A stretch of 64,000 nucleotides of DNA from Flavobacteriia bacterium (GTDB taxonomy: Bacteria > Bacteroidota > Bacteroidia > Flavobacteriales > Weeksellaceae): contig JAECQR010000004.1 of the NCBI GenBank assembly GCA_015999765.1, positions 1 through 64,000 of the forward strand, in the 5' to 3' direction. A model generated the notes under the pieces. It worked only from the letters and a program-made list of their open reading frames with translations, had not been told where the DNA came from and ran no database searches. Positions 9,562 to 35,727 of the stretch are shown here, piece by piece; position 1 is the first letter of the stretch, and each line of letters opens with the position of its first letter. Both the position numbers and the translations under genes were made by a program.

Positions 9562-10116
9562 TTAGAGCGAAAGATCCAAAAGAAAATGATACGCTTTTTG
9601 CGCGCCGGAAATACAGTCGTCCTCGAATTCCTGAGTAATCTGCCTGTCCATTACCTCTTTAAAGTTTTTCCAGTACGACCCTGTTTTATCACCATAACAC
9701 CTGAAGTAATTAAAAGGAACTTCATAAAAATCAGGATTCTTCGAAAGCTGTTTGGCAATCATATTTCCGCCTAAAGTAGAACCTTCCATTACATAAAGAA
9801 TACCGAACGCTTCGGCTTCATTTTTAACCTCCGGTAGAATTGGAACCGCAGATTTTTCGAGATTCAAAAATTCCAGATCCTTTTCGATTAAAGACAACTT
9901 TCGTCTGTTCTCCAGATTGAGTTCTTCTGCATTCGGCTTAGATATGGCGGAAAATATTGCATTTTCAAAATTCTTCAGAAAAAGATAATTGTAAAGAATA
10001 AGATTTCTGTAAGCATTCAGCGAAAAAGTGCCGTCGAAAATCCTTTTAGAGTTGAACTGGGCTTCGACACGGTCGTGCAGAATTTTGGTGTCTGCTTTTA
10101 AAATTTCAGAAATCAT
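9562..10116 (-). CDS. bphO: Biliverdin-producing heme oxygenase
   Basis: KILHDRVEAQF proximal-His region, LYVMEGSTLGGNMI; 8 bp from the phytochrome gene. Confidence 0.85.
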   Translation of the reverse strand: MISEILKADTKILHDRVEAQFNSKRIFDGTFSLNAYRNLILYNYLFLKNFENAIFSAISKPNAEELNLENRRKLSLIEKDLEFLNLEKSAVPILPEVKNEAEAFGILYVMEGSTLGGNMIAKQLSKNPDFYEVPFNYFRCYGDKTGSYWKNFKEVMDRQITQEFEDDCISGAQKAYHFLLDLSL

Positions 10117-10124
10117 TCCTGGTT

Positions 10125-12314
10125 TTATGGTCTTTTAAAGGTCAGAATAAAGGTCGTTCCTTCATTTTCTTTGCTTTCGTAAGTGATATTTCCTTCCAAA
10201 CGGTTCATGATGCGGTAGACGATGGAAAGACCTACCCCGTTTCCCTGGAACGATTTGGCATTCTCCATCCGGTTGAAGATCTTAAACATCTTTTCCTGTT
10301 CAGATTCGGGAATCCCGATGCCGTTATCTTTGACTTTATAAATCACATGGTTCCCGTTTACTTCCCCGCCGATTTCAATCTTTGGATTTTGATGTGTGGA
10401 GGAATATTTTACCGCGTTGCCAATAATGTTCAGGAATACCTGGGTAAGCATGGTTTCGTCCCCCATTACATTAGGCAGGTCGCCTACGATAATTTCGGCG
10501 TTTTCGTTAAGGGTGAGCTTCATATCGCACGAGACTTTATTGATAATAGCGGCGGTAGATAACTCCTGAACAGTGATGTCGGAAGACTTAGCACGGCTTA
10601 GGCTCAGTACGCCACGCATCATGTTTTCCATACCAAGGATTTCCTTTAAAATACTTGATACCCTTTTCCTCACGTCCGGATGATCGTGATGGGATTTTTC
10701 CAGAAGCTGGGCATTGAGTTTCATGACCGTCAAAGGAGTTCCCAGATCATGTGAAATGGAGTAGGAAAAGCTGTCGAGCTCTTCATTAAGATTTTTCAGT
10801 TCCTCGTTCAGTTCCTGCACTCTGCGGAATTGAGAGTATGTGGTTTCCAGAATGGTTGCTACCACTCTTTTCGCCGCAAAAATGTCTTTATTTTGCCAGG
10901 GTTGTGCTTTTCCTTTGATATCTTCTATATAAGTTTCAAAAGATTTTCTTGGCGAAATCATCATCTGTTCCTTTCCGTTAACAATCCGGGCTTCGGTTTT
11001 CTTAGAAGGATTTCCGGCCCACAGCACCTGCCCGTCGATTTCTTTGCGGAACCAGATCAGGAGTTCATTCCGTTTATCATCAGTAAATCCAAACATTACT
11101 CCTGCCGCATTTTCTATAATTCCTAAATTTCCCTGCAGCGAATGGCTGAAATCATTGGTTGCGTAAAAATTCTTCAATGGATTCTCCCTCGCATACTGCA
11201 CGATTTGAAGAATATTTTCGTCCGAAGGCACCTCGCCGGAAGTCGCAATATTACGGCCGACAATAATGGCCAAACCATCAGCAGCAGGATATTTCTGCAT
11301 TTCTGCCACATTGCTGAACAGAGAATCCTCCAGATTGTCATAAGCCATGAGTTTGGCCTTCAGCGCTATAATTTTCCGGTCGAGTTCGATACTGTCAGTA
11401 AGCGTTTGTCTTGATTTATAGGAGGTATAGGCGTTGGCTGCAATTACAGTAAAGACCTCTGCACGCATCCGGTTTACCAGATCGATGTGTTTCGCCTTAA
11501 TATTCTGGCAGGTTACCATTCCCCACAGTTTATTATCGATGACAATCGAAGTGCTGAAACTTGATGAAACTCCTGTGTTTTTTAAGTATTGCCCGTGTAT
11601 AGGCGACATTCCTCTTACGGAAGAATACGTTAAATCCACCGCCTCCTCTGTACTGCTGATGATGGGAATTGGTTCAGAATACACATCACTGAAAATCCGT
11701 TTACGTTTTTTGAGATAGAGCTCCCGGGCCTGCCTTGGGATATCACTTTCAGGATAATGGAGGTTCAGGAAACTCTCGACTTTGTTTTTCACCTGTTCGG
11801 CAATTACCTTTCCGCTCCCGTCTTCCAAAAAACGGTAGAGCATTACCCGGTCATAATCTACCGCGTCGGACACTGAGGAAAGCAGTTCGTTCCATATCTC
11901 TTCTGAATCGGTAGCGTTGTGGATGCTTTCGTATTTTTTGGAAACAAAACTTCTCTGGTGAAAATGTTCAATGACTTCCTCAAATTCAAGAAAAACGTCT
12001 GCACCATATTTGTAAATGGTAAAATGGTAAAACTTTCGCTTGATTTCGATCCTGTCCAGATAAACATCGGTATCTTTTAAAGTATTCAGATCAAGATTTG
12101 TGAGCACAACCGAAGCCAGCAAAGGCTTGAAAACCTCAGGCTCCTGGCCAAAGCTTTTACCAAAAAAGCTTTTATCCATAGGGAAAATCTCGAAAATATT
12201 CTGTGAGAAAAATTTAATCGTCTTCGATTCAGCATCCAACCCGATAAGGTATCCGAAATCCTGGATATGACCCGAAACATGTATCTTTTCCTCGTGGCAG
12301 TCCACAAAATTCAT
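10125..12314 (-). CDS. bphP: Bacteriophytochrome sensor histidine kinase (PAS-GAF-PHY-HisKA-HATPase)
   Basis: VDCHEEKIHVSGHIQDFGYL (chromophore Cys), DIPRQARELYLKKRKRIFSDV, SPIHGQYLKNTGV, PRKSFETYIE tongue motif, SYSISHDLGTPL H-box. Confidence 0.92.
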   Translation of the reverse strand: MNFVDCHEEKIHVSGHIQDFGYLIGLDAESKTIKFFSQNIFEIFPMDKSFFGKSFGQEPEVFKPLLASVVLTNLDLNTLKDTDVYLDRIEIKRKFYHFTIYKYGADVFLEFEEVIEHFHQRSFVSKKYESIHNATDSEEIWNELLSSVSDAVDYDRVMLYRFLEDGSGKVIAEQVKNKVESFLNLHYPESDIPRQARELYLKKRKRIFSDVYSEPIPIISSTEEAVDLTYSSVRGMSPIHGQYLKNTGVSSSFSTSIVIDNKLWGMVTCQNIKAKHIDLVNRMRAEVFTVIAANAYTSYKSRQTLTDSIELDRKIIALKAKLMAYDNLEDSLFSNVAEMQKYPAADGLAIIVGRNIATSGEVPSDENILQIVQYARENPLKNFYATNDFSHSLQGNLGIIENAAGVMFGFTDDKRNELLIWFRKEIDGQVLWAGNPSKKTEARIVNGKEQMMISPRKSFETYIEDIKGKAQPWQNKDIFAAKRVVATILETTYSQFRRVQELNEELKNLNEELDSFSYSISHDLGTPLTVMKLNAQLLEKSHHDHPDVRKRVSSILKEILGMENMMRGVLSLSRAKSSDITVQELSTAAIINKVSCDMKLTLNENAEIIVGDLPNVMGDETMLTQVFLNIIGNAVKYSSTHQNPKIEIGGEVNGNHVIYKVKDNGIGIPESEQEKMFKIFNRMENAKSFQGNGVGLSIVYRIMNRLEGNITYESKENEGTTFILTFKRP

Positions 12315-16493: not shown

Positions 16494-16530
16494 AAAAACC
16501 GCTGTAAACATTACATTTACAGCGGTTTTT
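16494..16530. terminator. Perfect 15-bp stem hairpin carrying the left attachment core
   Basis: AAAAACCGCTGTAAA-CATTACA-TTTACAGCGGTTTTT. Confidence 0.85.
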
Positions 16531-16681
16531 TTAATATTACAACCTGAAGTTAATCCATATTATTTCACTTCTTCAAAAATAACTTATACTGAAAACCAAT
16601 TAATTATAATCTCAAGGTACAAGTAAGATACAGAATTTCCATAACATTTCAACACATAAGGAGCAAAAAGAATTGCAAAAA

Positions 16682-19600
16682 TTACCAATAAATGGGATTT
16701 ATAAACCTTCGAAGACGTTCATATTCAGCATATTCAAGTGAGTTATCAATTTTTTGTTTAACATAATTCTTAATTGGAATTAAGTGAAGTTGAGACTTAC
16801 CCTTATTTAAAATCTCAAATATACTACGCCACTCGTTTGCTCGAATATTTCCTACGATGATATTTCCAGAGTACGACCCTCCAATTCCATTCCATGATAT
16901 TGATGAAAAATCTTCAATGTCTATATTATTTTCAAGAAACAAAAACAAGAACGTTTCAAATTGATCTGAAAAGTATTTTCTAACCAGCCGTATAATACAA
17001 TTCACAGAACTGATATTTTTTGGCCATTTTACAATCATATTTTTTAAGAATTGTAAGGCTAATTCTTTTTTAGTTCCAGATAAGTCTTGGAAAAACATAT
17101 CAAACTCATCGTCACCAATTCCAATTTGTACTGAATTAGCAATAATATCAAAGAATAATTTTTCCATATCATTCTCGTCAAGGAAATTCCAGATAAAATT
17201 TAGATTCTCCATATTTACGTTCATCAGCCTCTCGTTAAAATAAAATAGAGTAACAAATTCAAAAATGAAATTTTTATTAAAACTTAAAATTAATTTCAAC
17301 CCTTTTCTTTCATAGTCAAAATCTGTCCGCTGTTTTGATGAACCTTCTTGCATATATAGTTTCTCCACCAAATCTCTATCTGTCTCTAGCTGAGTTATAC
17401 AATGTTCAAAAAAATCATCGTCTATATAAATATCAATACCCTGAAGTTTTTTATCGTAAATAATCTTAAGAAAATCCGAGAAAATGGTTTGTGAATATGG
17501 ACCGAACTTATGAAGCCAACTAAAATTAAAATATTCTGGAGAATCTAAATATTTGGTCGTATTGTAAAATTCTTTAGTATAATAATCATTAACAGATTCA
17601 TCATTCAATTGTTCAAAAAAAGACAACCTAAACCGATTTGAATTCTTATGCTGCAAACGTTTTAAAAATTTCCACAGAACCAAACCATAATCTGAATCAT
17701 TAGCAATTAGTGAAAATACATTGTAAGGCACTGATGTATTTGTGCAAGATTTATTACGGATAAAATACTTTAACATTTCAAATCCTAAAACCTTATTCCT
17801 TTTAAATGTGTTTTCTATTATAATACAAAGGGAGTTAAAATTACTATGATTATGAGGTGACACGAGTAAGGTATTTTTGATCAGTTTACCAAACCTTCCA
17901 AATTCAGACTTATCTTTGAAAACAAAATGCGTAGTAATTTCTTTTATTTTTAATTTTCTATATTCATTATGATCAATCTTTCGATTTTTAGTTCGAAATC
18001 TCCTTGTCCACTCTACTTTTGAATAATCAACAAACTCATCATTTATAAAACGATTATATAAATGTTGATACTTTATATTTCTTGGTTTAATAAATCTTAA
18101 TGAATCCAGAAATTGTTGCACGAAATATACATCTTCGAATTTCTTTGGTTTCAATTTTTCTTCTATAAATCCCAGAATTAAAGGAAGATCTAAAGCCAAC
18201 GTTTTTTTATTTACCTCAGTATAATGCGGTTTCCAATCATTAATAATTTTTAAGACTCTCTGTGGAAATTTTGCAAACAGTTCAAACAAATAATTCCATA
18301 CTTCTATCTTCATACATTTAACCTTTTCGTTTAACGGAACCATATAGTTGTAATGAATGAATGCATTATTTTTCCGTGAAGTTTTAAAAACTCTGTTCGT
18401 ATGCTTTAAAAAAAGTGTTGCTAATCCTAAAAACGCTTCCTGGTAATGTGGAAGTTCTTCTTTTGATTTAGCAATAAGTAATTTCGATAATTCCCTTTGT
18501 TTTTCAAAATTATTATTGAATTCATCGTCGTCCTCAAAACTTGTATTTTCTTTCAGTCTTCTTATCAGTTCAGGAAATACACTTGGGCTTTTTCTGGTAT
18601 ATTCAAAGGAAAGTTCAACTGCTGCATTAAAGCTATCTTCAGCGTAAGATCTGAAGAAAGGTGTAAGTAGCGCCAATAGTTTATCATCAGCAAACACAAA
18701 ATCATTTGTGTCATAGATAGCATTATATACCGGGTTCTCAGATTCTTCTATTTGACTTACTTTTTTATAAATGCATGCTAAAGTTTCTTCACGCTTATAA
18801 AACCAAAACAACTTAATAAATCTTACAATCCTCTCATTATCATTTTGAAAGGTAAAAAAATATTGGTTAAGGTCATCTTTAATACGATCAAATACTTCTG
18901 TATAACCGAAGGTATTGTTTGAAATTATAACAGTATCTGCAAATCGATGACTGAAATCATCAAGATATCCAAACAATAATTTGTTGAATGATAACTTCTT
19001 GTCTTTTATAAAAATCTTATAAAAGAAATAGGTTGACATAACCTGCTCTGAAATTCTCACATTGTCGCCACTAATCTCGATAAGCTCACGCTTTGAAAGC
19101 TCATCCAGAGATTCTTGAAACTCATAATAGTTTAAATCGAAATTTTTCAGAAGTTGTTCTAAGAACAATTTATCATCTCTTCTAAGTGTAAAGAAAAAAG
19201 AGACTATTCCTATCGTCTTTAGCATTGCAGTGTTATCAAACATGCTAAAATCTTTTAAAAATGTTCTGAAGTAAATATCATAAAGTTGATACACCCCTCC
19301 TTTTAAAAATTCATAATGTTTTTCCCTAGCCAATTTTGCTGCCATAACAGCTAAACGGCTATTGCCGTCTGCAAGAGCTATGATTTTATTTTGATATCTG
19401 GAATGCTTTACTTGAAAGTAATCATTACTGATGATACTTTTGATTTCATCGTCTGAGAACTTAGAAAGCTCTATTATCCTAGGCTCGAAATTATCATAAA
19501 TTGTGTAAATATCAGGGAGAGCATGGTTTCTGACGGTTATAACTAATTTAATATTACCTTTTCTCTTTTCTCTAAATACATTCATTATTTGCGAGAAATT

Positions 19601-20431
19601 GAGCAATTGTCTATTAGCATCATCAATTAAAAGGATGTAATTTTTTTTGGAATTTAAATGAATTATAAGGTCTTCCCAGATATCAATATCTTTTTTAACA
19701 ATAGCATATGATCTATAATCAGGATTTTCACTTAAAAACTGATTAATTACTTCGAGTCCAAATTTTGTTTTACCAACTCCCGCAGGCCCAGATAGCACCA
19801 CAAGATCTTTTGATTCAAGAGAAATTCTTACTTGCTCTAACTCTGTCACTCTTCCTAAAAATGGATTATCCAAAGGAGTGGAAAGATTACCTGCTTTATT
19901 ATTATATTCCTCTATAAAATTATTAATAGGTAAAATTTGGCCAGTCTCAAACGGGATACCTAAAATCTCTTTTGCTATAATATGATGTTCAGTAAAAATA
20001 TCTAAGGCAAGCTTATCAAGTCCAATAAGTTCGATATCAATATTGTGCGTTCTACTAAATTCAATAACGCTTTCTTCCTGATCCACCTTTAGTTTACAAT
20101 TAAAAAATAAAATAATTTTATTTATTTTTTCATTATTAATTTTTACCACCTTAGAATCCAGACAGACTAAAATATCATCTTTTAATTTCTTAACAATTCC
20201 CTTATTGGCAACAGTGGTAAATTCAACGAAATACAAATGCCCCGATTCACTTCTAAAAAAAGTATCCGGAGTTCCTTTCACCGTTTTCTTTTTACCAACT
20301 TGACTCCCTGTTCTATTAATGCTTTGAACTTGATTATCTCTTAAATTCAAATAAACATCACATAGGTTTTGAAATTCAGCATCATTGATACTTACCAATT
20401 TTTGTTCTATTATCTGTAATCTACCACTCAT
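16682..20431 (-). CDS. STAND-type P-loop NTPase with N-terminal PD-(D/E)XK-like domain and long C-terminal helical region; putative antiphage protein
   Basis: VKGTPDTFFRSESGHLYFVEFTT (REase-like), Walker A LSGPAGVGKTKFG, Walker B YILLIDDANR. Track start 20449 (GTG) lies in a TATATTTG -7 box; ATG 20431 preferred. Confidence 0.78.
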   Translation of the reverse strand: MSGRLQIIEQKLVSINDAEFQNLCDVYLNLRDNQVQSINRTGSQVGKKKTVKGTPDTFFRSESGHLYFVEFTTVANKGIVKKLKDDILVCLDSKVVKINNEKINKIILFFNCKLKVDQEESVIEFSRTHNIDIELIGLDKLALDIFTEHHIIAKEILGIPFETGQILPINNFIEEYNNKAGNLSTPLDNPFLGRVTELEQVRISLESKDLVVLSGPAGVGKTKFGLEVINQFLSENPDYRSYAIVKKDIDIWEDLIIHLNSKKNYILLIDDANRQLLNFSQIMNVFREKRKGNIKLVITVRNHALPDIYTIYDNFEPRIIELSKFSDDEIKSIISNDYFQVKHSRYQNKIIALADGNSRLAVMAAKLAREKHYEFLKGGVYQLYDIYFRTFLKDFSMFDNTAMLKTIGIVSFFFTLRRDDKLFLEQLLKNFDLNYYEFQESLDELSKRELIEISGDNVRISEQVMSTYFFYKIFIKDKKLSFNKLLFGYLDDFSHRFADTVIISNNTFGYTEVFDRIKDDLNQYFFTFQNDNERIVRFIKLFWFYKREETLACIYKKVSQIEESENPVYNAIYDTNDFVFADDKLLALLTPFFRSYAEDSFNAAVELSFEYTRKSPSVFPELIRRLKENTSFEDDDEFNNNFEKQRELSKLLIAKSKEELPHYQEAFLGLATLFLKHTNRVFKTSRKNNAFIHYNYMVPLNEKVKCMKIEVWNYLFELFAKFPQRVLKIINDWKPHYTEVNKKTLALDLPLILGFIEEKLKPKKFEDVYFVQQFLDSLRFIKPRNIKYQHLYNRFINDEFVDYSKVEWTRRFRTKNRKIDHNEYRKLKIKEITTHFVFKDKSEFGRFGKLIKNTLLVSPHNHSNFNSLCIIIENTFKRNKVLGFEMLKYFIRNKSCTNTSVPYNVFSLIANDSDYGLVLWKFLKRLQHKNSNRFRLSFFEQLNDESVNDYYTKEFYNTTKYLDSPEYFNFSWLHKFGPYSQTIFSDFLKIIYDKKLQGIDIYIDDDFFEHCITQLETDRDLVEKLYMQEGSSKQRTDFDYERKGLKLILSFNKNFIFEFVTLFYFNERLMNVNMENLNFIWNFLDENDMEKLFFDIIANSVQIGIGDDEFDMFFQDLSGTKKELALQFLKNMIVKWPKNISSVNCIIRLVRKYFSDQFETFLFLFLENNIDIEDFSSISWNGIGGSYSGNIIVGNIRANEWRSIFEILNKGKSQLHLIPIKNYVKQKIDNSLEYAEYERLRRFINPIYW

Positions 20432-20448
20432 TTGCACAATATTTACCA

Positions 20449-20541
20449 CAAATATAACGAATTAACGTTAAATAATAACACTAAATGTAAAATATTTTAC
20501 ATTTATAATATTTTATATTACAATAAACATTACATTTGTAA
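20449..20541. promoter_or_regulatory. Symmetric divergent promoter with a central 24-bp perfect palindrome
   Basis: Minus -7 box TATATTTG (20456-20449), plus -7 box TACATTTG (20531-20538), palindrome TAAATGTAAAATATTTTACATTTA (20482-20505), IR TTACAA-N12-TTGTAA (20518-20541). Confidence 0.8.
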
Positions 20542-20556
20542 CACTAAAACTAAAAA

Positions 20557-21645
20557 ATGTACACAGAGATTTTAAGAATAATAGAAGGAGGATTAAACAG
20601 GGATATTAAAAAAATAACAAATTATTCGAAGATTCTTGCTGAAAAATTAGAAAAAGATGGAGATGGAAAATTGGCAAAATTAATTATTAATACACTGGAT
20701 AATAAGCCTTCTTCAATGGTATCAATGGATTCTTTGCTTTCGAGTCCGGTCGATCAGGAAAGCCGTATGAGTATTGTTGATATTTCAATGCCAATTAAAA
20801 ACGATGGAGAGGTAATTCTTCCACCAGGCATCGCTAATAAAGTTGAAGATTATGTTAACTTATATCGTCATCAAAATGAGCTTATAAAGAATGGTCTTGA
20901 AATTTCGAATTCTCTATTACTATATGGAATTCCAGGAGGTGGAAAAACGACGATTGCTAAATATATTTCATATAAAACAGGACTTCCTTTAATCACGGCT
21001 CGTTTTGATGCTATTGTATCATCTCTTTTGGGTAATACCTCAAAAAATATCCGTAAAATTTTTGAATATGCGGATGAAAAACCATGTATCCTTTTCTTAG
21101 ATGAGTTTGATGCCATAGCTAAGGCGAGAGACGATCAATACGAATTAGGAGAACTTAAAAGGGTTATAAACAGCTTACTTCAGAACATTGATAATTTTTC
21201 AAAATCCAATCTACTTATTGCCGCTACAAATCATTCGGAACTTTTAGATAAAGCAATTTGGAGAAGATTTAATACAATCATTGAGGTTGGACTTCCGAAT
21301 CAAAATGAAATACAGGGGCTTATAGAAAAGTTCATTCAAGGATCGGCAAACGATTTTTTGAACGACGAAAAAAAACTGGGTAGGATTCTTCAAAACTTGG
21401 AAGGGAAGACACCGTCGTTTATCAAAACTTTATTCAATAATATTCTTGCTCAAAAAATCATTAGAAACAAAGAAATGCTTTCGTACGAAGATGTTCTTGT
21501 AGAAATTTTCGAAACTAATAACAAAGATTATAAGCCTGAAGACCTTATCATATTTTTAAATGAAAGTGGTATAACTCAGGAGCGCATAACACAAATAATG
21601 AACATATCGATCAGACAAGTCAGAAATAATTTAAAAACAAAATAG
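20557..21645 (+). CDS. ietA: AAA+ ATPase of an IetAS-type system
   Basis: LLLYGIPGGGKTTIAKYIS (Walker A), CILFLDEFDAIA (Walker B), IAATNHSELLDKAIWRRF (sensor/Arg finger); followed 9 bp later by a subtilisin gene. Confidence 0.8.
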   Translation: MYTEILRIIEGGLNRDIKKITNYSKILAEKLEKDGDGKLAKLIINTLDNKPSSMVSMDSLLSSPVDQESRMSIVDISMPIKNDGEVILPPGIANKVEDYVNLYRHQNELIKNGLEISNSLLLYGIPGGGKTTIAKYISYKTGLPLITARFDAIVSSLLGNTSKNIRKIFEYADEKPCILFLDEFDAIAKARDDQYELGELKRVINSLLQNIDNFSKSNLLIAATNHSELLDKAIWRRFNTIIEVGLPNQNEIQGLIEKFIQGSANDFLNDEKKLGRILQNLEGKTPSFIKTLFNNILAQKIIRNKEMLSYEDVLVEIFETNNKDYKPEDLIIFLNESGITQERITQIMNISIRQVRNNLKTK

Positions 21646-21654
21646 ACATAAATC

Positions 21655-24021
21655 ATGGAAAGGAATTTACCAATAAAATTTTTTCAAAAACGAATTAATG
21701 ACGAAAGAAACACTGAAGGCGGTGGAAACCAAGATCCACCAAAATGGTTTGATGAAACTGTCGTTCCCGGCAAGGCACAGCAATTTATTGATACGCTAAG
21801 TGATGTTTCTCAGAAAATATCAGCGAAACAACGCAATGACAATTACATTCCTAATGTTATCAAGTTAAAAGTTAATCAAGATGCATTAGCAAAAACTTAC
21901 CGTAAAGAAATTCGTCAGATTTTTAATACTCAAAAAATGAATGTGATTGGCTTGAGTCAAAATGACGAAGTTTTAGTAAAAATTGAGAGTGCAGAAGAAG
22001 TAAATAAAATCACAAAAAAACTAGCACAAGGTTTAAAACAATCAGCAAAGCAAGGAGTAAAATTAGGTATTGCTGCTATTGATGATGTTGAAGAGCATTA
22101 TCCAGAAATCAGTATTGATATTGAGACATTTGAAGAAGCTGAAGAGCTTAAAGTAAAATTATTCAACTATGGTGATCCGGAACTAAACACAATAGCCATA
22201 AGAGCTTTTGAAAAATTCTGTATAGATAGAGATATTGATTATAGCAGAACATTATATTCTGCAGATTTAAATATTTTCAAAATCAGCCACGCAACGCTTG
22301 ATACTGTTGAGGAGTTAAAAGATTTTGACGGTGTTCAACTTATTTCGGAAATGCCAAGATATTATGTTACTTTGGACGAGTTAGATGGCGACGGCCAGAT
22401 AAATATTAAAATGCCAGAAGCAGGAAAGGAATATCCTACTATAGGAATTCTTGATAGTGGTATTGCAAAAATACCCCATTTATCTCCGTGGCTACTGGAG
22501 GATAATTTCACAAAATATCATGAAGATGACGTTGATAAAGGTCACGGAACCGCTGTATCGGGAGTTCTGCTATATGGTGATGAGCTAGAGGAAGAAAATT
22601 ATACTGGTTTTCAAGGTGCAAAGCTTTTTGAAGCCATTGTATTTCCAAACAATACTACTCAAGGAGTTTCAGAAGAAGAATTGATAGAAAATATACGTGA
22701 AGCAATTAGCGAAAATGACCACATTAACATATGGAATTTATCATTAGGAACTAACAAAGAGGCCGACGAAATTGAATTTTCAGACTTTGGAAAAGCTTTG
22801 GATGAAATTCAGGAACAGCACAATGTTTTGATTTGCAAATCAGCTGGTAATTGCGGAAATTTTCAAAAAAATAGTCCAAGAAGCAGAATATCACAATCTG
22901 CAGATACAATCAGAGGTCTGGTTGTGGGATCTATTGCAAAAAGTAAAAACTCAACAGATTTATCAGAAAAAAATCATTCATCACCTTTTTCCAGAATTGG
23001 ACCTGGTCCATCTTTTTTAATAAAACCTGAAATTTCGCATTTCGGAGGCAACGTAGGACTAGATCAAAATAATAAATTAATACTGAATCCTGTTTACACT
23101 TTTTCAAAAACTGGTGACAGAAAAGGTGTTGTGGGAACAAGTTTTTCAACTCCAAGGATTTCTTCAATTGTCTCAGGTCTTGATCATTTGTTAAATGAAG
23201 GTTTTAACCCTCTTCTATTAAAAGCTTTAACAATTCACTCTGCCAAGTATCCTGTAGAATTAAAAATTGCTATTGATGAGAAGTTAAAACATGTTGGGTT
23301 TGGTGTACCCTCTAATATTCAGGATATACTTTTCAACCAGCCAAATGAAATTACTTTAATACTTCAGGATAATTTAGAAAAAGGTAATTTTATAGAAATT
23401 CTTGATTTCCCGTATCCTCAGTCGATGGTTGACGAAGATGGTTATTTTCACGGAGAAATTTGTGTAACCCTCGTAACCTCTCCAATTCTTGATTCGGCAA
23501 ATGGTGCAGAATATTGCCAGTCAAATATTGAAGTTTTGCTGGGAACATATGATGAAAAGACTGACAGAGACACATCAAAACGTGGAATTATAAATCCTAT
23601 AGGCAAAGATGGCGCAAAGAATCTTTTATCTCATAGCCTCTATAGTAAATCGGCAATCAAGAATACTGAAAGCCCGTACACCAAAGAACGAGTTTTGGTA
23701 GCTTATGGAGATAAATTCCAGCCTGTAAAAAAATGGTCGGTTAATTTGGACGAATTTACAGCATCAAATAAAGAAAAATTTCTGAAAAACCCTAAAAATT
23801 GGTATCTTAAAGTGGAAGGTCTTTTTAGAGATTTTATCGAAACAAAAGCCGATATGCAGAGAATAACTCCAAGCCAAGAATTCTGTCTTATTATCACAAT
23901 AAAAGATACAAGAAATGAAAGTCACATCTACAATGAAGTTACACAACTATTGGATAGCTACAACTTCGTTCATCAGAATGTTCGATTAAAAGAAAACGTA
24001 AGAGTTCAGCTTAGAAGTTAG
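21655..24021 (+). CDS. ietS: Subtilisin-like S8 serine protease of an IetAS-type system
   Basis: Catalytic Asp PTIGILDSGIA, His KGHGTAVSGVL, Ser GTSFSTPRISS; oxyanion region KSAGNCGNF. Confidence 0.83.
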   Translation: MERNLPIKFFQKRINDERNTEGGGNQDPPKWFDETVVPGKAQQFIDTLSDVSQKISAKQRNDNYIPNVIKLKVNQDALAKTYRKEIRQIFNTQKMNVIGLSQNDEVLVKIESAEEVNKITKKLAQGLKQSAKQGVKLGIAAIDDVEEHYPEISIDIETFEEAEELKVKLFNYGDPELNTIAIRAFEKFCIDRDIDYSRTLYSADLNIFKISHATLDTVEELKDFDGVQLISEMPRYYVTLDELDGDGQINIKMPEAGKEYPTIGILDSGIAKIPHLSPWLLEDNFTKYHEDDVDKGHGTAVSGVLLYGDELEEENYTGFQGAKLFEAIVFPNNTTQGVSEEELIENIREAISENDHINIWNLSLGTNKEADEIEFSDFGKALDEIQEQHNVLICKSAGNCGNFQKNSPRSRISQSADTIRGLVVGSIAKSKNSTDLSEKNHSSPFSRIGPGPSFLIKPEISHFGGNVGLDQNNKLILNPVYTFSKTGDRKGVVGTSFSTPRISSIVSGLDHLLNEGFNPLLLKALTIHSAKYPVELKIAIDEKLKHVGFGVPSNIQDILFNQPNEITLILQDNLEKGNFIEILDFPYPQSMVDEDGYFHGEICVTLVTSPILDSANGAEYCQSNIEVLLGTYDEKTDRDTSKRGIINPIGKDGAKNLLSHSLYSKSAIKNTESPYTKERVLVAYGDKFQPVKKWSVNLDEFTASNKEKFLKNPKNWYLKVEGLFRDFIETKADMQRITPSQEFCLIITIKDTRNESHIYNEVTQLLDSYNFVHQNVRLKENVRVQLRS

Positions 24022-24038
24022 AATGCAGCTTACACCTT

Positions 24039-24076
24039 GAAAAAGAGCTACTATTGCTAGATGGTAGCTCTTTTTT
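24039..24076 (+). terminator. Terminator after ietS
   Basis: AAAAAGAGCTACtattgctagatGGTAGCTCTTTTTT. Confidence 0.75.
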
Positions 24077-24199
24077 GATAAAGAAAAATTAAATTTTCAC
24101 TTTATACGGTAGAAGTTTGTTCTTGAGAAGGGAAATTGTTACTTTCTGTAATATAATATTTTATTTCTTTTTGTATTTTAGTTAAAACTAAGAAAACCC

Positions 24200-25210
24200 A
24201 TGAAAATAAATTTAGAAAAGATTTCAATTGAAGTTGAAGATAAAAAACTAGATATTAAAATCAATGATGGTATTGAATTACCCAAAAGTTTATATAAATA
24301 TTATTCATTATCCTACAGAGCTGTAGAGTCACTCGAAAACCATACTGTACACTTTGGTCATGCCTTTTCGATGAATGACTTAATGGATGGTAACTTTCTT
24401 TTGTGGGATTTTAATCGGTTTTTAGATACATTTATGTACGAAATGCAAATTCCTCAAATAGCAAGAGTTGATCTGCATGCTGACCTTATAAAAAAATTAT
24501 CGGATGAGTTTCTTAAATATCTTGGATATTTTTGTCTTTGCGAAAACTATATGAATGACTTATTGTGGTCACACTATACTGCTGAGCGGGGATACTGCCT
24601 GGAATTTGACAGAGAAAAACTACTTGACAATTTTAAAGAACATCAAAATTACTTCTTTCCTATAAATTACAGCGATCTTAAAAAAATCGACTTTCAAGAA
24701 TATAGTGATAGAATAGTTGTAGGAAATAAAGTTAGCGTTGGAGCCAACATACCGTTATTCTACAGTTTAGCTAATAAAGAGAAATTTTGGAGTTACGAAA
24801 GAGAATGGAGATTAGTTATTAGAGATGAAAGATTTTCAGCTATTGTAAATCCGCAGGTAATAATTTCAGATGAAGAAAAGAAAATTCAAAACCAAAACTT
24901 ACACTCAAGAAATCTTAAAATCGAACTAGATTCAATAAACAAAGTTATATTGGCTACGCTCTTTTTCAATAATGATAGATTCAATAATATTGAAAAAATT
25001 GACAATACTTCATTTCGATTACAGTTTACAGAGAATAAAGAAAAAATAGATCTACAAAAATTTTTAACCATTCTTAAGAATGAGTTTCCGGATAAAATAT
25101 TTCAGGTCGAAAAAGTTGTTGGCGATAAAATTTCTAGAGAAATTAAATATAAATTAGATATATTGGACGTTAGCAATGAATTCGTCGACATCAGGTATAA
25201 TAATTGTTAA
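24200..25210 (+). CDS. DUF2971-family protein
   Basis: LPKSLYKYYSLSYRAVESLENHTVHFGHAFSMNDLMDG, LLWSHYTAERGYCLEFDREKL, WSYEREWRLV. Confidence 0.72.
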   Translation: MKINLEKISIEVEDKKLDIKINDGIELPKSLYKYYSLSYRAVESLENHTVHFGHAFSMNDLMDGNFLLWDFNRFLDTFMYEMQIPQIARVDLHADLIKKLSDEFLKYLGYFCLCENYMNDLLWSHYTAERGYCLEFDREKLLDNFKEHQNYFFPINYSDLKKIDFQEYSDRIVVGNKVSVGANIPLFYSLANKEKFWSYEREWRLVIRDERFSAIVNPQVIISDEEKKIQNQNLHSRNLKIELDSINKVILATLFFNNDRFNNIEKIDNTSFRLQFTENKEKIDLQKFLTILKNEFPDKIFQVEKVVGDKISREIKYKLDILDVSNEFVDIRYNNC

Positions 25211-25276: not shown

Positions 25277-28200
25277 TTAATTTAAGAGCAGATCACAAAA
25301 ATCGTAGAATTTTATAAATAGCTTTTTCGCATTCTCCTTATCTCCCATTTCAATGTAAATTAGAATCATCTTGTAAAAACCTCCATACCCAGATTTTTGA
25401 ATAAGATATTGCAGCATTTGCTGGCTTGTTTCTCTCTTTAGCATACAGTATGCTGATCCCAGATGGAGATAGTCCGAATTGTATGAATATCCCATTCCGC
25501 TGAGCATTATTCCATACTTTTCAAGGGTTTCAATGAAAAGCTTAATTTCTCCAGTTATTGCAAATGTCTTATCAATTAACTTCTTCCAAATCTCTTTATC
25601 TTTAATTTCGATTTTATACTTAAGAGAATCATTAAACTTCTCATATACATCTTTAATATCTGCTAAAGATTCTGCCTGATCAATCAAAAGAGAAAATTGG
25701 TCTTCTGATATTACTATATAATTGCTACTCTGTTTAGGAATAATATTTTCTACTTCGTTAAGTTTACAGAATTCATTATAGTATGCGTAGTACTCTTCAT
25801 ATACCAATCTATCATAATCAAAATTTCCAGAAACCTTCTCCACCGCTTCAAAAGCATGCTTGAAAGCCAATTTCTTTATTTTGGAATCATAAAAATCACT
25901 TTTTAGAACTTCCATTTCTATACTGAAGAGAAGAAAATAGTGAGATCTGGGTAATTCACCTTTATAATCGAACATTAAGCTAAAGGAGTTAACTTTCTCC
26001 CGAACCAGATGGTAGGCAATTGAATTTTGACGAATATCATTAATTAAAATTTCAGTGGTTCCAATATTTTTCACACTCCAATCCAAATCTTTCTCTTTAA
26101 AGTCATTTAGATATTCGTAAGCCAACTCTGTATCGTAAAAAGATAATGACCTAAGAAAAGTTGATACCCCATAATTTGTATGATCCTTATCGGTAACACT
26201 ATACAGTTTAATGTTCATATTATATAACTTTTTTGAAAGGTTGATAACTTCCCTTTTGGAAAACCATCTCTTCTTTAAAATTTCCCCAAACGTATCGTTC
26301 AGAAATTCTGATACGACAATATCTTTTCTCCAACCATGTCTGACGACACTATTACTAAAACCTTCCTGTAGGTAATGAATTACCTTTTTAGAATCTATTC
26401 TTGAAAATATTCCGCTTAATAAGAAGCATCTGTCAACAAATTTCGAATAATCCTGTTTCCATTCTAGTAATTCAGCCTCATGCTTTTCAATATCCGATTC
26501 TGAAAAAACATTAGAGAGAAAATGGCTGTCAATTTGATTAATCTGATCAAAAAACAATATGGTATCAAGGTCGTATTTTAAAACTTTACTAAGATGAATA
26601 AAATCTGTATATAAGGTGTTGGCATAATAAAAGATAAAAGCCCATAGTTTAGAAATTACTACCGTACTACTCTCATAAGCTTCAATTGTATTAACGAATT
26701 TATTCCTGTATGCAACCAAATATCTTGAAAAACTGTGCTTTTCTCTTAGTAAGTTGATATACTGTAAGAATAATTCAGAACATTTAATGATATCTTTACA
26801 TACAATACTATCCAAATTTATACTTTGTAAAAAAATTTCTTCGCCGACTATTACATAACATAACTGGAAAGATTTAATAAATTTTGAGAAATAAAACCTA
26901 TTAACTCTTGTTTTAATAACTGCTAAGGCTGCAATACAACCTTTCGCTTGGTTTTCAGTTACATTTAAAGCTAATACTTTCTTAAAAAAATATACCGATA
27001 AGTTATTTATAACAGGTTTGATCTTATAATTCTTGACTCCGTTAATAATTTCATTTCTAAGTTCCATATTAGAAAATACAATTGGTAGAAACTCATTTTC
27101 TGAAAGCAAGTTTAATAGAGAGACAAATTCAGCTGTATTTAAGGTATTGATTAATCCAAGCAGATCATTAATTTTATGTTTCAATCCGACCTTGAAAAAT
27201 GCCCTCAAGAAATGTTCGTAAGGACTTATTTCCTGAAGCATTGTTGTTTCCTCTTTGCTTTGCTGGTCACAAAATTTTCTATATTTTTTGATAAAGAAAT
27301 CAGCATAATCTATTTCCTGCTCAATACAGATTTTGAAAAAAATGTTTCCTTCAGCCTCCTTGAAATTCCATTCCATCTTGGAATCATTTGCAATTTCTTT
27401 AGCAAATGGTATTTTACCATTTTCGTAGAACTTTAATGCATTAGAGTAATCACGAACAATATATGACCTCAAATTGAGAACATCATCGTTGATTAACATT
27501 TCAAAAACAGGCTGTGTCTGTATAACCAGATTATCAATAAAGGTTTCTGAATCAGAAACATACCATGTATCGCCATTAGATTGATAAAACTGAATACTCT
27601 TTACCAATATCAGCCCCGCAATATTATCTTTTTCCTTATACTTACTTTCCAGATATTTTAAGAAAACATCATCAAAAAAATCAGAATTTATAATAAATCT
27701 GTCCTTTCGCAATATTTTAATGTCTTTCTCAAATCTTTTTTTTAGACCTCTTGCAAAAAAATACTCCTGATATCGTCTATGATGGTAAATGTAACTAGGA
27801 GAAGTAGCATAGCTGTTAGCACCAACATCAAAGAAAGCATTAATATTAAAATTTAATATTTCGTTTAAACTCTTATAGCAACTTCTCTTAAATCTTTTCT
27901 TTACAACTTTTGTTAGTTCGGTGTGTTTAAATCTATATTGGTATTTTCTTGAAAATTTGTACGACAGATCTTCGTTTAACCTCATGATTTGTTTGTCTTT
28001 GGGATTTAGGAGATCAAGTTGCTCGATATTACTTTTGTGATTGACGTCTTTGAGCTGCGACATCACTTTAAGTTGTAAAAGATCTATAACACTCGATGAT
28101 TTGTCTAAACTTTCAATGGTTTCCCATAATAATCTAATCATAAAGATGTCGTTGATTTCTTCTAATAATTTCAGGTTGGATTTCTTTAATGACTGCAATT

Positions 28201-29248
28201 TTTTTTCCTTATCCTTATTACGCTTTATAATGAAGTACTTTTCTATATGTTCTAAGGTTAGATTATCAATTTCGTAATGTTTCAACTGAGAAATAAACTC
28301 CGAAACCTTTATTTTGTTCAAGCTACCCTTTCTGCAGGATATTAAAATATTTTTTGTGTTGCTCTGCCCCGCCAATATCTTTATGTACTGAAGGACATTT
28401 TCAGCTTTTGACTCATTTAATTCATCCAGTCCATCAAAAATATAAATAAAACTTAGGGCTTTTCTGTGCACTTTATAATCATTTTGACGGTGACGGATAA
28501 TATTTTCTAGAGAATCATCATAACAATCTTTTAAATTAATAAGCATAGGAAGATTTTTATTCTTCCTAAATCGAGATAATGATCCTCCAAGTTCAGCCTG
28601 ATCGTAAAATATTTTTTTTACAAGAAGACTTTTTCCTCCTCCAGGACTACCGGTTAACAATGAAACTTTTTCAGTAATAGTTAAGGTGCCAATAACATTA
28701 TCTGACTTTATTGGTAAATCAAGTAATTCCGAGGACTGTATAAGACTAGAGGCTTCGATGTCCATATTATCTTTTATAAAACCATATTCGTCTCCTAAAC
28801 CAAAAAACCGTTGTGCCAGATCAAGATTGGAAGGCTTACTTAGAGCTATTTCAAACTGACTAATAGTAAACCAATCAATTTCAATATTATTTTTAGCTGC
28901 TAGATTCTCTATATCTTTTGCTTTTTTCGAAGAAATTTTAATATCAATATTCAGATAAATTGTGATTCTATCTAGTTCATTTGGATATGTTTCTATAGCT
29001 TTAACTATAGATTTTTCTATCTGTTTGTAATTGTTATCATTTTCCAAAAATTTAGACTGAAATCCCACGTTAATATTCTCAATACGACTTAGTTTTGGAT
29101 ACGTCTCTAAGCCAACTTGGTTAAAATCCGCACGTACACCATCCAAAAATTCGTGACTTCTGCAGAACAAATGATAACATAATTCTTCGAATGACTTTGT
29201 TGTATTCTCATTTTTTACTTTAAATGCATTCCAGTTAATTTTAAACAT
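25277..29248 (-). CDS. NACHT-domain NTPase with N-terminal restriction-endonuclease-like domain; putative antiphage STAND
   Basis: N-term SFEELCYHLFCR...INVGFQSKFLENDNNYKQIEKSIVKAIE; NACHT LLTGSPGGGKSLLVKK and FIYIFDGLDELNESKAE. Confidence 0.82.
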   Translation of the reverse strand: MFKINWNAFKVKNENTTKSFEELCYHLFCRSHEFLDGVRADFNQVGLETYPKLSRIENINVGFQSKFLENDNNYKQIEKSIVKAIETYPNELDRITIYLNIDIKISSKKAKDIENLAAKNNIEIDWFTISQFEIALSKPSNLDLAQRFFGLGDEYGFIKDNMDIEASSLIQSSELLDLPIKSDNVIGTLTITEKVSLLTGSPGGGKSLLVKKIFYDQAELGGSLSRFRKNKNLPMLINLKDCYDDSLENIIRHRQNDYKVHRKALSFIYIFDGLDELNESKAENVLQYIKILAGQSNTKNILISCRKGSLNKIKVSEFISQLKHYEIDNLTLEHIEKYFIIKRNKDKEKKLQSLKKSNLKLLEEINDIFMIRLLWETIESLDKSSSVIDLLQLKVMSQLKDVNHKSNIEQLDLLNPKDKQIMRLNEDLSYKFSRKYQYRFKHTELTKVVKKRFKRSCYKSLNEILNFNINAFFDVGANSYATSPSYIYHHRRYQEYFFARGLKKRFEKDIKILRKDRFIINSDFFDDVFLKYLESKYKEKDNIAGLILVKSIQFYQSNGDTWYVSDSETFIDNLVIQTQPVFEMLINDDVLNLRSYIVRDYSNALKFYENGKIPFAKEIANDSKMEWNFKEAEGNIFFKICIEQEIDYADFFIKKYRKFCDQQSKEETTMLQEISPYEHFLRAFFKVGLKHKINDLLGLINTLNTAEFVSLLNLLSENEFLPIVFSNMELRNEIINGVKNYKIKPVINNLSVYFFKKVLALNVTENQAKGCIAALAVIKTRVNRFYFSKFIKSFQLCYVIVGEEIFLQSINLDSIVCKDIIKCSELFLQYINLLREKHSFSRYLVAYRNKFVNTIEAYESSTVVISKLWAFIFYYANTLYTDFIHLSKVLKYDLDTILFFDQINQIDSHFLSNVFSESDIEKHEAELLEWKQDYSKFVDRCFLLSGIFSRIDSKKVIHYLQEGFSNSVVRHGWRKDIVVSEFLNDTFGEILKKRWFSKREVINLSKKLYNMNIKLYSVTDKDHTNYGVSTFLRSLSFYDTELAYEYLNDFKEKDLDWSVKNIGTTEILINDIRQNSIAYHLVREKVNSFSLMFDYKGELPRSHYFLLFSIEMEVLKSDFYDSKIKKLAFKHAFEAVEKVSGNFDYDRLVYEEYYAYYNEFCKLNEVENIIPKQSSNYIVISEDQFSLLIDQAESLADIKDVYEKFNDSLKYKIEIKDKEIWKKLIDKTFAITGEIKLFIETLEKYGIMLSGMGYSYNSDYLHLGSAYCMLKRETSQQMLQYLIQKSGYGGFYKMILIYIEMGDKENAKKLFIKFYDFCDLLLN

Positions 29249-34698: not shown

Positions 34699-35727
34699 TT
34701 ATTGATAAAAATTGAACGATTTATATTCCTTTAAAAAATTTATAATTTCTTCTACTATTACGGATTCAGAAGTTAGTTTTTCAATTACTTCAATACTATT
34801 TTCTCCTTGATAATATGCTAAAATGGCACACGAAACCTCTCTTGTTTCCAACTGTAAACTTTGGTCTTTGACAAAGTCTATCAGATAATTTTCTATTTCA
34901 TTTACTGCAGACAAAATCGCTTCGACTGATTGTCCAATACTTCCTCTTACTATTCCTTCATCAAGGTCAATTAAATTTATAAGTTTTAGAACTGTAACTT
35001 TATTTAATTTTTGAATTTTTTCCCTAGCATAATTTCTAATATCTTGGTTCTGTTCTTCTCCATAATGGTAAAGGTCAGCATGCCAAGGAATGTGTGCAAG
35101 AAAATAAATAATATTTAGGTTAAAATCAGGTATTGAATTATTTTCCAAGTAATCTAAAAATTTGTCCCAAGTTATTTTTTGGTTTTTATACTTTCTGAAT
35201 AAAACTTTTGCACCTAAATAAGATTCTTGAGGTTTTGAAGATTCAAAAAAAGAAATGGCTAGTGTCAAATCTATTAATGGAATATCTCCTAGAATACCGG
35301 GAATGAAGATGTCTCTAAAAGATTTTAAATCAATTGTATTTGCTCTCGTGCATTCATATTTTATTGTTTTTACCTCTTTATTATTTTCGAGATAGTTTTT
35401 AATATTTACATAATATGCTTTTTCTAATTGGGGAACAACTACAAATCCATAAACTGGCAAAGGATAGTTCTTCCAATATTCATAATGAGAATTTACAGGG
35501 ATTTTACATTGATTACTGTTTACGTCATAATATGACTCACCCGATTTTATTTGTCCTGCAATGCTTTTGTGCATTGGTTTTTCGTCTTTAGTAAATTCAA
35601 TAATACAGTCTATTCCTAAATCATTTTCTTGCTCAATTTTATGAAATAAGCAAGAAGTAGCTTCAACTATACTTCTTATATAATTTATTCCATTTTTAGA
35701 TGTTACATTGGTCTGTTTATATTGCAT
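34699..35727 (-). CDS. DUF4365-type (PD-(D/E)XK-like) protein with helical-repeat-like C-terminus
   Basis: EQENDLGIDCIIEFTKDEKPMHKSIAGQIKSGESYY; C-terminal repeat-like helices. Confidence 0.68.
   Translation of the reverse strand: MQYKQTNVTSKNGINYIRSIVEATSCLFHKIEQENDLGIDCIIEFTKDEKPMHKSIAGQIKSGESYYDVNSNQCKIPVNSHYEYWKNYPLPVYGFVVVPQLEKAYYVNIKNYLENNKEVKTIKYECTRANTIDLKSFRDIFIPGILGDIPLIDLTLAISFFESSKPQESYLGAKVLFRKYKNQKITWDKFLDYLENNSIPDFNLNIIYFLAHIPWHADLYHYGEEQNQDIRNYAREKIQKLNKVTVLKLINLIDLDEGIVRGSIGQSVEAILSAVNEIENYLIDFVKDQSLQLETREVSCAILAYYQGENSIEVIEKLTSESVIVEEIINFLKEYKSFNFYQ

Follow-up and report, generated by a model that had tools for sequence, protein, structure and literature searches.

A phased 21-bp repeat array in the promoter region shared by an ietAS operon and an Avs-like STAND gene in a Flavobacteriia bacterium

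The ietAS genes reportedly came to light through their effect on the stability and incompatibility of the plasmid pTiC58. This system, also represented by sgiAT of SGI1 and named IteA/IteS at NCBI, consists of a gene for an AAA ATPase followed by an adjacent gene for an S8 protease, and the same order is kept in the locus considered here, which lies in a stretch of 64,000 nucleotides (the window) from contig JAECQR010000004.1 of a Flavobacteriia bacterium (assembly GCA_015999765.1). Work on pTiC58, SGI1 and mycoplasmas has assigned the role of toxin to the S8 protein and that of antitoxin to the AAA protein (PMC5006074, PMC8562856). Expressed from its own promoter, sgiAT of SGI1 gave no post-segregational killing, which led its authors to propose a need for activation (PMC5006074). 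No established account of IetAS control and triggering was found in the literature searched. In the window, the open reading frame (ORF) listing places a STAND NTPase gene head-to-head with the ietA-ietS operon, the three genes spanning 16682-24021, and a phased array of short direct repeats occupies the region between them. A preliminary description, made from the sequence alone, had proposed that the three genes form a composite defence system. We give about even chances to a different reading, in which STAND and IetAS are two autonomous defence modules of one divergent, horizontally moved cassette, coupled through a shared promoter region and not assembled into a three-protein machine. The elements concerned are the following:

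16682..20431, minus strand: Avs-like nSTAND3 NTPase of 1249 residues (ORF, Pfam, alignment and model), with an N-terminal PD-(D/E)xT domain (residues 1-160), a STAND NTPase domain (residues ~190-480) and a long C-terminal region, presumed to be the sensor
20449..20456, minus strand: putative -7 promoter box of the STAND gene, TATATTTG, from upstream comparison of relatives
20455..20543, no strand: five TWAC(A/G) boxes forming an array phased in 21-bp steps, candidate IetA operator
20531..20538, plus strand: putative -7 promoter box of ietA, TACATTTG, with TAnnTTTG in 7/7 close relatives
20557..21645, plus strand: IetA, AAA+ ATPase (FtsH/PAN/Vps4-like) with a predicted C-terminal helix-turn-helix (HTH) at residues ~327-360
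21655..24021, plus strand: IetS, S8 subtilisin-like protease with an intact D267/H297/S496 triad

The boxes of the array begin at 20455, 20476, 20497, 20518 and 20539, that is, at -102, -81, -60, -39 and -18 from ietA, and read, in this order, TAACG, TAACA, TTACA, TTACA and TAACA. Their spacing is exactly 21 bp, and together they fill the intergenic region, overlapping the promoters of both STAND and ietA. The same phase is present in close relatives, whether or not they carry the STAND gene. The periodicity was evaluated by direct-repeat autocorrelation over 170 bp of upstream DNA, compared with dinucleotide-preserving shuffles, for 79 IetA genes sharing less than 85% identity, 67 of them with a C-terminal HTH (HTH-bearing and HTH-less proteins were separated by reading the C-terminal alignment and not by a formal score). 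For the 67 HTH-bearing ietA genes, the mean Z was 1.29 at lag 20, 1.64 at lag 21, 0.86 at lag 41 and 1.19 at lag 42, and nothing comparable appeared at lags 10-11 or 31-32, which led us to reject A-tract curvature as the origin of the periodicity. Significant signals at lags 20-22 were obtained for 33/67 HTH-bearing ietA genes versus 1/11 HTH-less ones, and upstream of only 19/235 other genes of the same loci (Fisher p 6e-13 against HTH-bearing ietA); solo STAND genes showed the periodicity in 1/21 cases. Lags 20, 21, 41 and 42 still ranked at the top after clustering at 50% identity (n=31). The array was found upstream of ietA in several phyla, and also on phage contigs and plasmids. Its repeat core varies by IetA clade, being TWACA in the clade of the window and ATTCGTTCT-like in that of L166/L169, as expected if the core tracks the HTH of IetA.

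This arrangement is reminiscent of type II toxin-antitoxin operons, in which the antitoxin gene also comes first, the antitoxin carries the HTH and operator-like repeats lie over the promoter. The locus departs from them, however, in having an AAA+ ATPase as antitoxin and, as candidate operator, a multi-unit array at 21-bp phase, which has more in common with iterons or arrays of DnaA boxes than with typical toxin-antitoxin palindromes. A palindromic operator over the -7 box of ietA (TTACAA-N12-TTGTAA) was considered and discarded in favour of the direct-repeat array, since it is present in several close relatives and missing in G262 and beyond. The phased array and a role for the C-terminal HTH were not described in the papers searched, a set that did not include the original pTiC58 paper. 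IetAS and an Avs-like STAND are ordinary components, joined in a cassette that is optional yet lasting; the array in their shared promoter region looks new.

The nature of the two proteins encoded by the operon agrees with the preliminary description, which had recognized an IetAS pair with an intact protease triad. IetA and IetS match the corresponding PADLOC models over their full length (PDLC02196, E 1.9e-135; PDLC02201, E=0, 1089 bits), IetA has intact Walker A and B motifs, and D267, H297 and S496 of IetS are invariant across the aligned relatives. Neither protein reaches its NCBIfam equivalog cut-off (NF042959 and NF042956; 360 of 510 bits for IteA and 391 of 900 for IteS), and by this measure, judged from sequence, the pair is a divergent member of the system, while full-length by PADLOC. 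The AAA part of IetA resembles PAN, FtsH and Vps4, and an AlphaFold2 model predicts a three-helix HTH in its last 35 residues with a pLDDT of ~92. Pfam HTH families also match the C-termini of ten diverse IetA proteins, some above the cut-off and several weakly.

From these elements, a mode of action can be proposed in which IetAS is a pair of protease toxin and ATPase antitoxin, and STAND is an Avs-like sensor-effector. IetA, an AAA+ protein and presumably hexameric, would restrain IetS, and its C-terminal HTH would bind the array, whose units, two turns apart, fall on one face of the helix. IetA may, in this way, be a DNA-binding AAA+ autoregulator: bound to the array, it would repress ietAS and probably also modulate the promoter of STAND, whose -7 box lies at the distal edge of the array, so that the neighbouring gene may be co-regulated. 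Infection would cause the loss or titration of IetA, leaving IetS free and both genes derepressed, while STAND would answer its own phage ligand. The lack of post-segregational killing by sgiAT would, by analogy, fit tight repression. A bolder version, which we consider rather doubtful, is that the HTHs of IetA grip the array, which would be both operator and the cis element of the plasmid incompatibility reported for ietAS, and that divergently placed defence genes (STAND here, CBASS in other loci) plug into it, the loss of IetA freeing IetS and switching on the neighbour. A conserved phased operator tied to the HTH of an antitoxin ATPase could explain how ietAS came to be discovered in pTiC58 as a determinant of stability and incompatibility, and the array suggests a route by which unrelated head-to-head defence systems could become co-regulated.

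Several points weigh against the proposed regulation. The periodicity in the window, taken alone, is marginal (p 0.025-0.05), so that the claim for the array rests on the family, and about half of the HTH-bearing ietA genes stay below significance. The HTH of the window IetA is weak by sequence (HTH_23, E 0.025), and the box that overlaps the -7 element of STAND may have arisen as a side effect of an array that belongs to ietA.

The co-occurrence of STAND and IetAS, which the composite system supposed by the preliminary description would demand, holds in one part of the family. All four STAND proteins found to be at least 50% identical to that of the window are encoded head-to-head with IetAS, namely the window itself (100%), G075 (identical with L021, Chryseobacterium kimseyorum; 94%), G160 (55%) and G194 (50%). 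They form one clade (support 100/100), whose branching order is congruent with the IetAS tree, and, despite their divergence, the -7 box of STAND lies exactly at -108 from the ATG of ietA in 4/4 loci, with the -7 box of ietA at -26 to -27 in all of them. Below 50% identity, none of the assessable STAND relatives in the family and phylum samples, genome contigs, plasmids and viral contigs stands beside IetAS (G012, on a 4-kb contig, was excluded from the assessment); these distant proteins are solo, fused to a TIR-like domain or located beside Gabija (G179, G038). Conversely, IetAS loci without STAND are found inside the IetAS clade: that of G177, whose IetA is 98% identical, adjoins PDC-M65 instead, that of G046 is head-to-head with a Septu-like PDC-M62 pair, and that of G262 with a CBASS operon (CD-NTase/HORMA/TRIP13/Sa_NUDIX). 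The presence of STAND changes at least three times on the IetAS tree. STAND without IetAS and IetAS without STAND thus make up most loci, and fixed co-occurrence as a rule was rejected, being confined to one STAND clade. It follows that the partnership is old but optional in both directions, and since each module also occurs alone, STAND and IetAS can be regarded as autonomous. What stands of the composite system is a real and old linkage; that the parts need one another does not.

Plain stacking within a defence island would require only one chance joining, maintained by selection for defence clusters, with no regulatory or physical interaction and with the array serving ietAS only; we regard it as a serious contender, at somewhat less than even chances. 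It is favoured by the free exchange of partners, CBASS, PDC-M62 or PDC-M65 for IetAS and Gabija or none for STAND, and a single joining event does account for the linkage, but against it, the linkage persists to 50% STAND identity with the flanks fully replaced, and the STAND -7 box keeps its exact distance from ietA. A true three-component system, in which STAND would sense for IetAS, be its substrate or serve as its effector, for instance through activation by IetS cleavage, is very unlikely, although the head-to-head pairing is conserved and congruent in one clade and the other IetAS of the genome also has a large neighbour carrying a Walker A-like motif, as does that of G169. Close IetAS pairs exist without any STAND, while intact STAND relatives lack IetAS, have an N-terminal effector-like domain of their own and, in two of them, carry an additional TIR-like domain. 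Moreover, STAND evolves much faster than its neighbours, with a nonsynonymous divergence (dN) of 0.34 versus 0.07-0.13 for IetAS between the window and G160, unlike an obligate substrate.

The array might, instead, be bound by another factor, such as a host regulator or nucleoid protein, or be structural DNA, the HTH of IetA serving for protein contacts. The small size of the HTH and, in Bacteroidota, the short and AT-rich boxes are compatible with this notion, which we nevertheless hold to be unlikely: the periodicity is unlike that of A-tract phasing, the repeat core differs by IetA clade, the array is absent where IetA has no HTH, and its distribution over several phyla, phage contigs and plasmids makes a common host factor improbable. 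The shared regulatory region is a better-supported link between STAND and IetAS than a three-part machine; the reading as a composite machine is weak, and what merits further attention is the phased array linked to an HTH-bearing IetA.

As stated in the preliminary description, the STAND gene encodes a protein of about 1250 residues with a GTPD-x(n)-VEFTT motif near its N-terminus. The listed ORF spans 20449 to 16682 on the minus strand, with a GTG start at 20449. The ATG at 20431 is the more likely start, because the -7 box TATATTTG, of the Bacteroidota type, covers 20449-20456, including that GTG, and the homologues begin at the ATG; this yields the 1249 residues given above. The protein matches nSTAND3 (PF20720) with 36.3 bits (cut-off 27.2), and the positions of its Walker A (GPAGVGKT) and Walker B (DDAN) motifs are conserved in the homologue alignment. 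The proposal of a restriction endonuclease-like N-terminus holds for the fold. A model of residues 1-482 (pLDDT 76, first strand of low confidence) contains a PD-(D/E)xK-type alpha-beta-beta-beta-alpha-beta core, so that the N-terminus models as an Avs4-like PD-(D/E)xK fold, and D56 and E70 of the KGTPD...VEFTT motif are kept in all aligned homologues. However, E-x-[ST]-[TA] stands where ExK would be expected, the catalytic Lys being replaced in every one of them; K82, which is invariant and located on the following helix, could perhaps substitute for it.

In its plan, the protein resembles the Avs proteins of AVAST, chiefly Avs4 and Avs5, with an N-terminal effector-like domain and an nSTAND NTPase, both supported by the model and Foldseek, and a long C-terminal region, and Avs5 also carries nSTAND3 (PMC12931631); the nuclease-like motif differs, as D..ExT and not ExK. 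The closest solved folds to the model, found by Foldseek, are Avs4 (8dgf) and the SIR2-STAND EfAvs5 (9jap), while a sequence search against solved structures gave no match. No Avs model of PADLOC or NCBIfam matches 16682-20431, where only weak matches to MkoA (in the Walker region) and mad8 were obtained, and for this reason the protein was not filed as Avs in spite of its Avs-like architecture. The family, Avs-like and capable of standing alone, is present in Bacteroidota, Bacillus and Leptospira and is missed by current defence models.

Some relatives of STAND deserve mention. Those of L025 (162-4400) and L026 (9530-13765) have ~140 extra N-terminal residues, TIR-like by eye (FVSYS...), for which a Pfam search gave no match. 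In L110 (3387-11295) and L111 (7505-15472), relatives with 34% identity are head-to-head with a Gabija GajA/GajB operon. The STAND genes of L023, a contig of a 'Methanobrevibacter' metagenome-assembled genome (MAG), and of L024, from a Dysgonamonadaceae MAG, appear identical, and the former is therefore probably a binning error.

The horizontal movement of the cassette was deduced from its limits, which, together with a neighbouring element, are as follows:

16559..24117: transferred cassette, ~95.5% identical to a block of Chryseobacterium kimseyorum and flanked on either side by unrelated DNA
16494..16530, no strand: bidirectional terminator-like hairpin 3' of STAND

The block (~7.6 kb) shows no similarity to C. 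kimseyorum outside these limits. Synonymous divergence (dS) was discarded as proof of joint transfer because its values are mosaic (0.14 for STAND, 0.32 for IetA and 0.08 for IetS) and provide no clean clock, leaving the block boundaries as the better evidence. No clean empty-site comparison was obtained within the genus, where the flanking kinase gene has a counterpart in a single other genome, at 50% identity. Inside the block, identity falls from ~98% to ~92% over window positions 18600-21300, which suggests that cassettes have recombined in the region of the STAND N-terminus and ietA.

A second IetAS pair of the same genome (L107; G000:C7 657170-663851) is HTH-less and is preceded by a gene for 1151 residues that contains a Walker A-like motif and matches nothing in Pfam; the same pair recurs in G169 (94%), and G232 has a relative of the large gene that is split. 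In L093 (7345-14161), IetAS lies ~150 bp head-to-head from a CBASS operon (CD-NTase, bacHORMA, TRIP13 and a Sa_NUDIX protein). A DUF2971 (PDC-S31-like) gene was observed beside IetAS in the window (24200-25210) and in the viral contigs L137 (11622-12563) and L139 (1969-2754), and in L135 (11971-12792) a gene resembling it lies after a STAND relative; as DUF2971 accompanies only 3/79 non-redundant IetA loci, it was rejected as a third IetAS component.

Downstream of the cassette, this DUF2971 gene and a second large STAND gene (25277-29248, minus strand, 1323 residues) identify the region as a defence island. The match of the latter to Avs4 is limited to residues 1-218 (E ~1e-32), pointing to an Avs4-like N-terminus joined to a different remainder. 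Elsewhere in the window, a bacteriophytochrome-like histidine kinase gene (9562-12314, minus strand) adjoins a heme oxygenase gene, and a DUF4365 gene (34699-35727, minus strand) bears a weak likeness to the PADLOC model Aga_REase-PNTD1-PNTD2.

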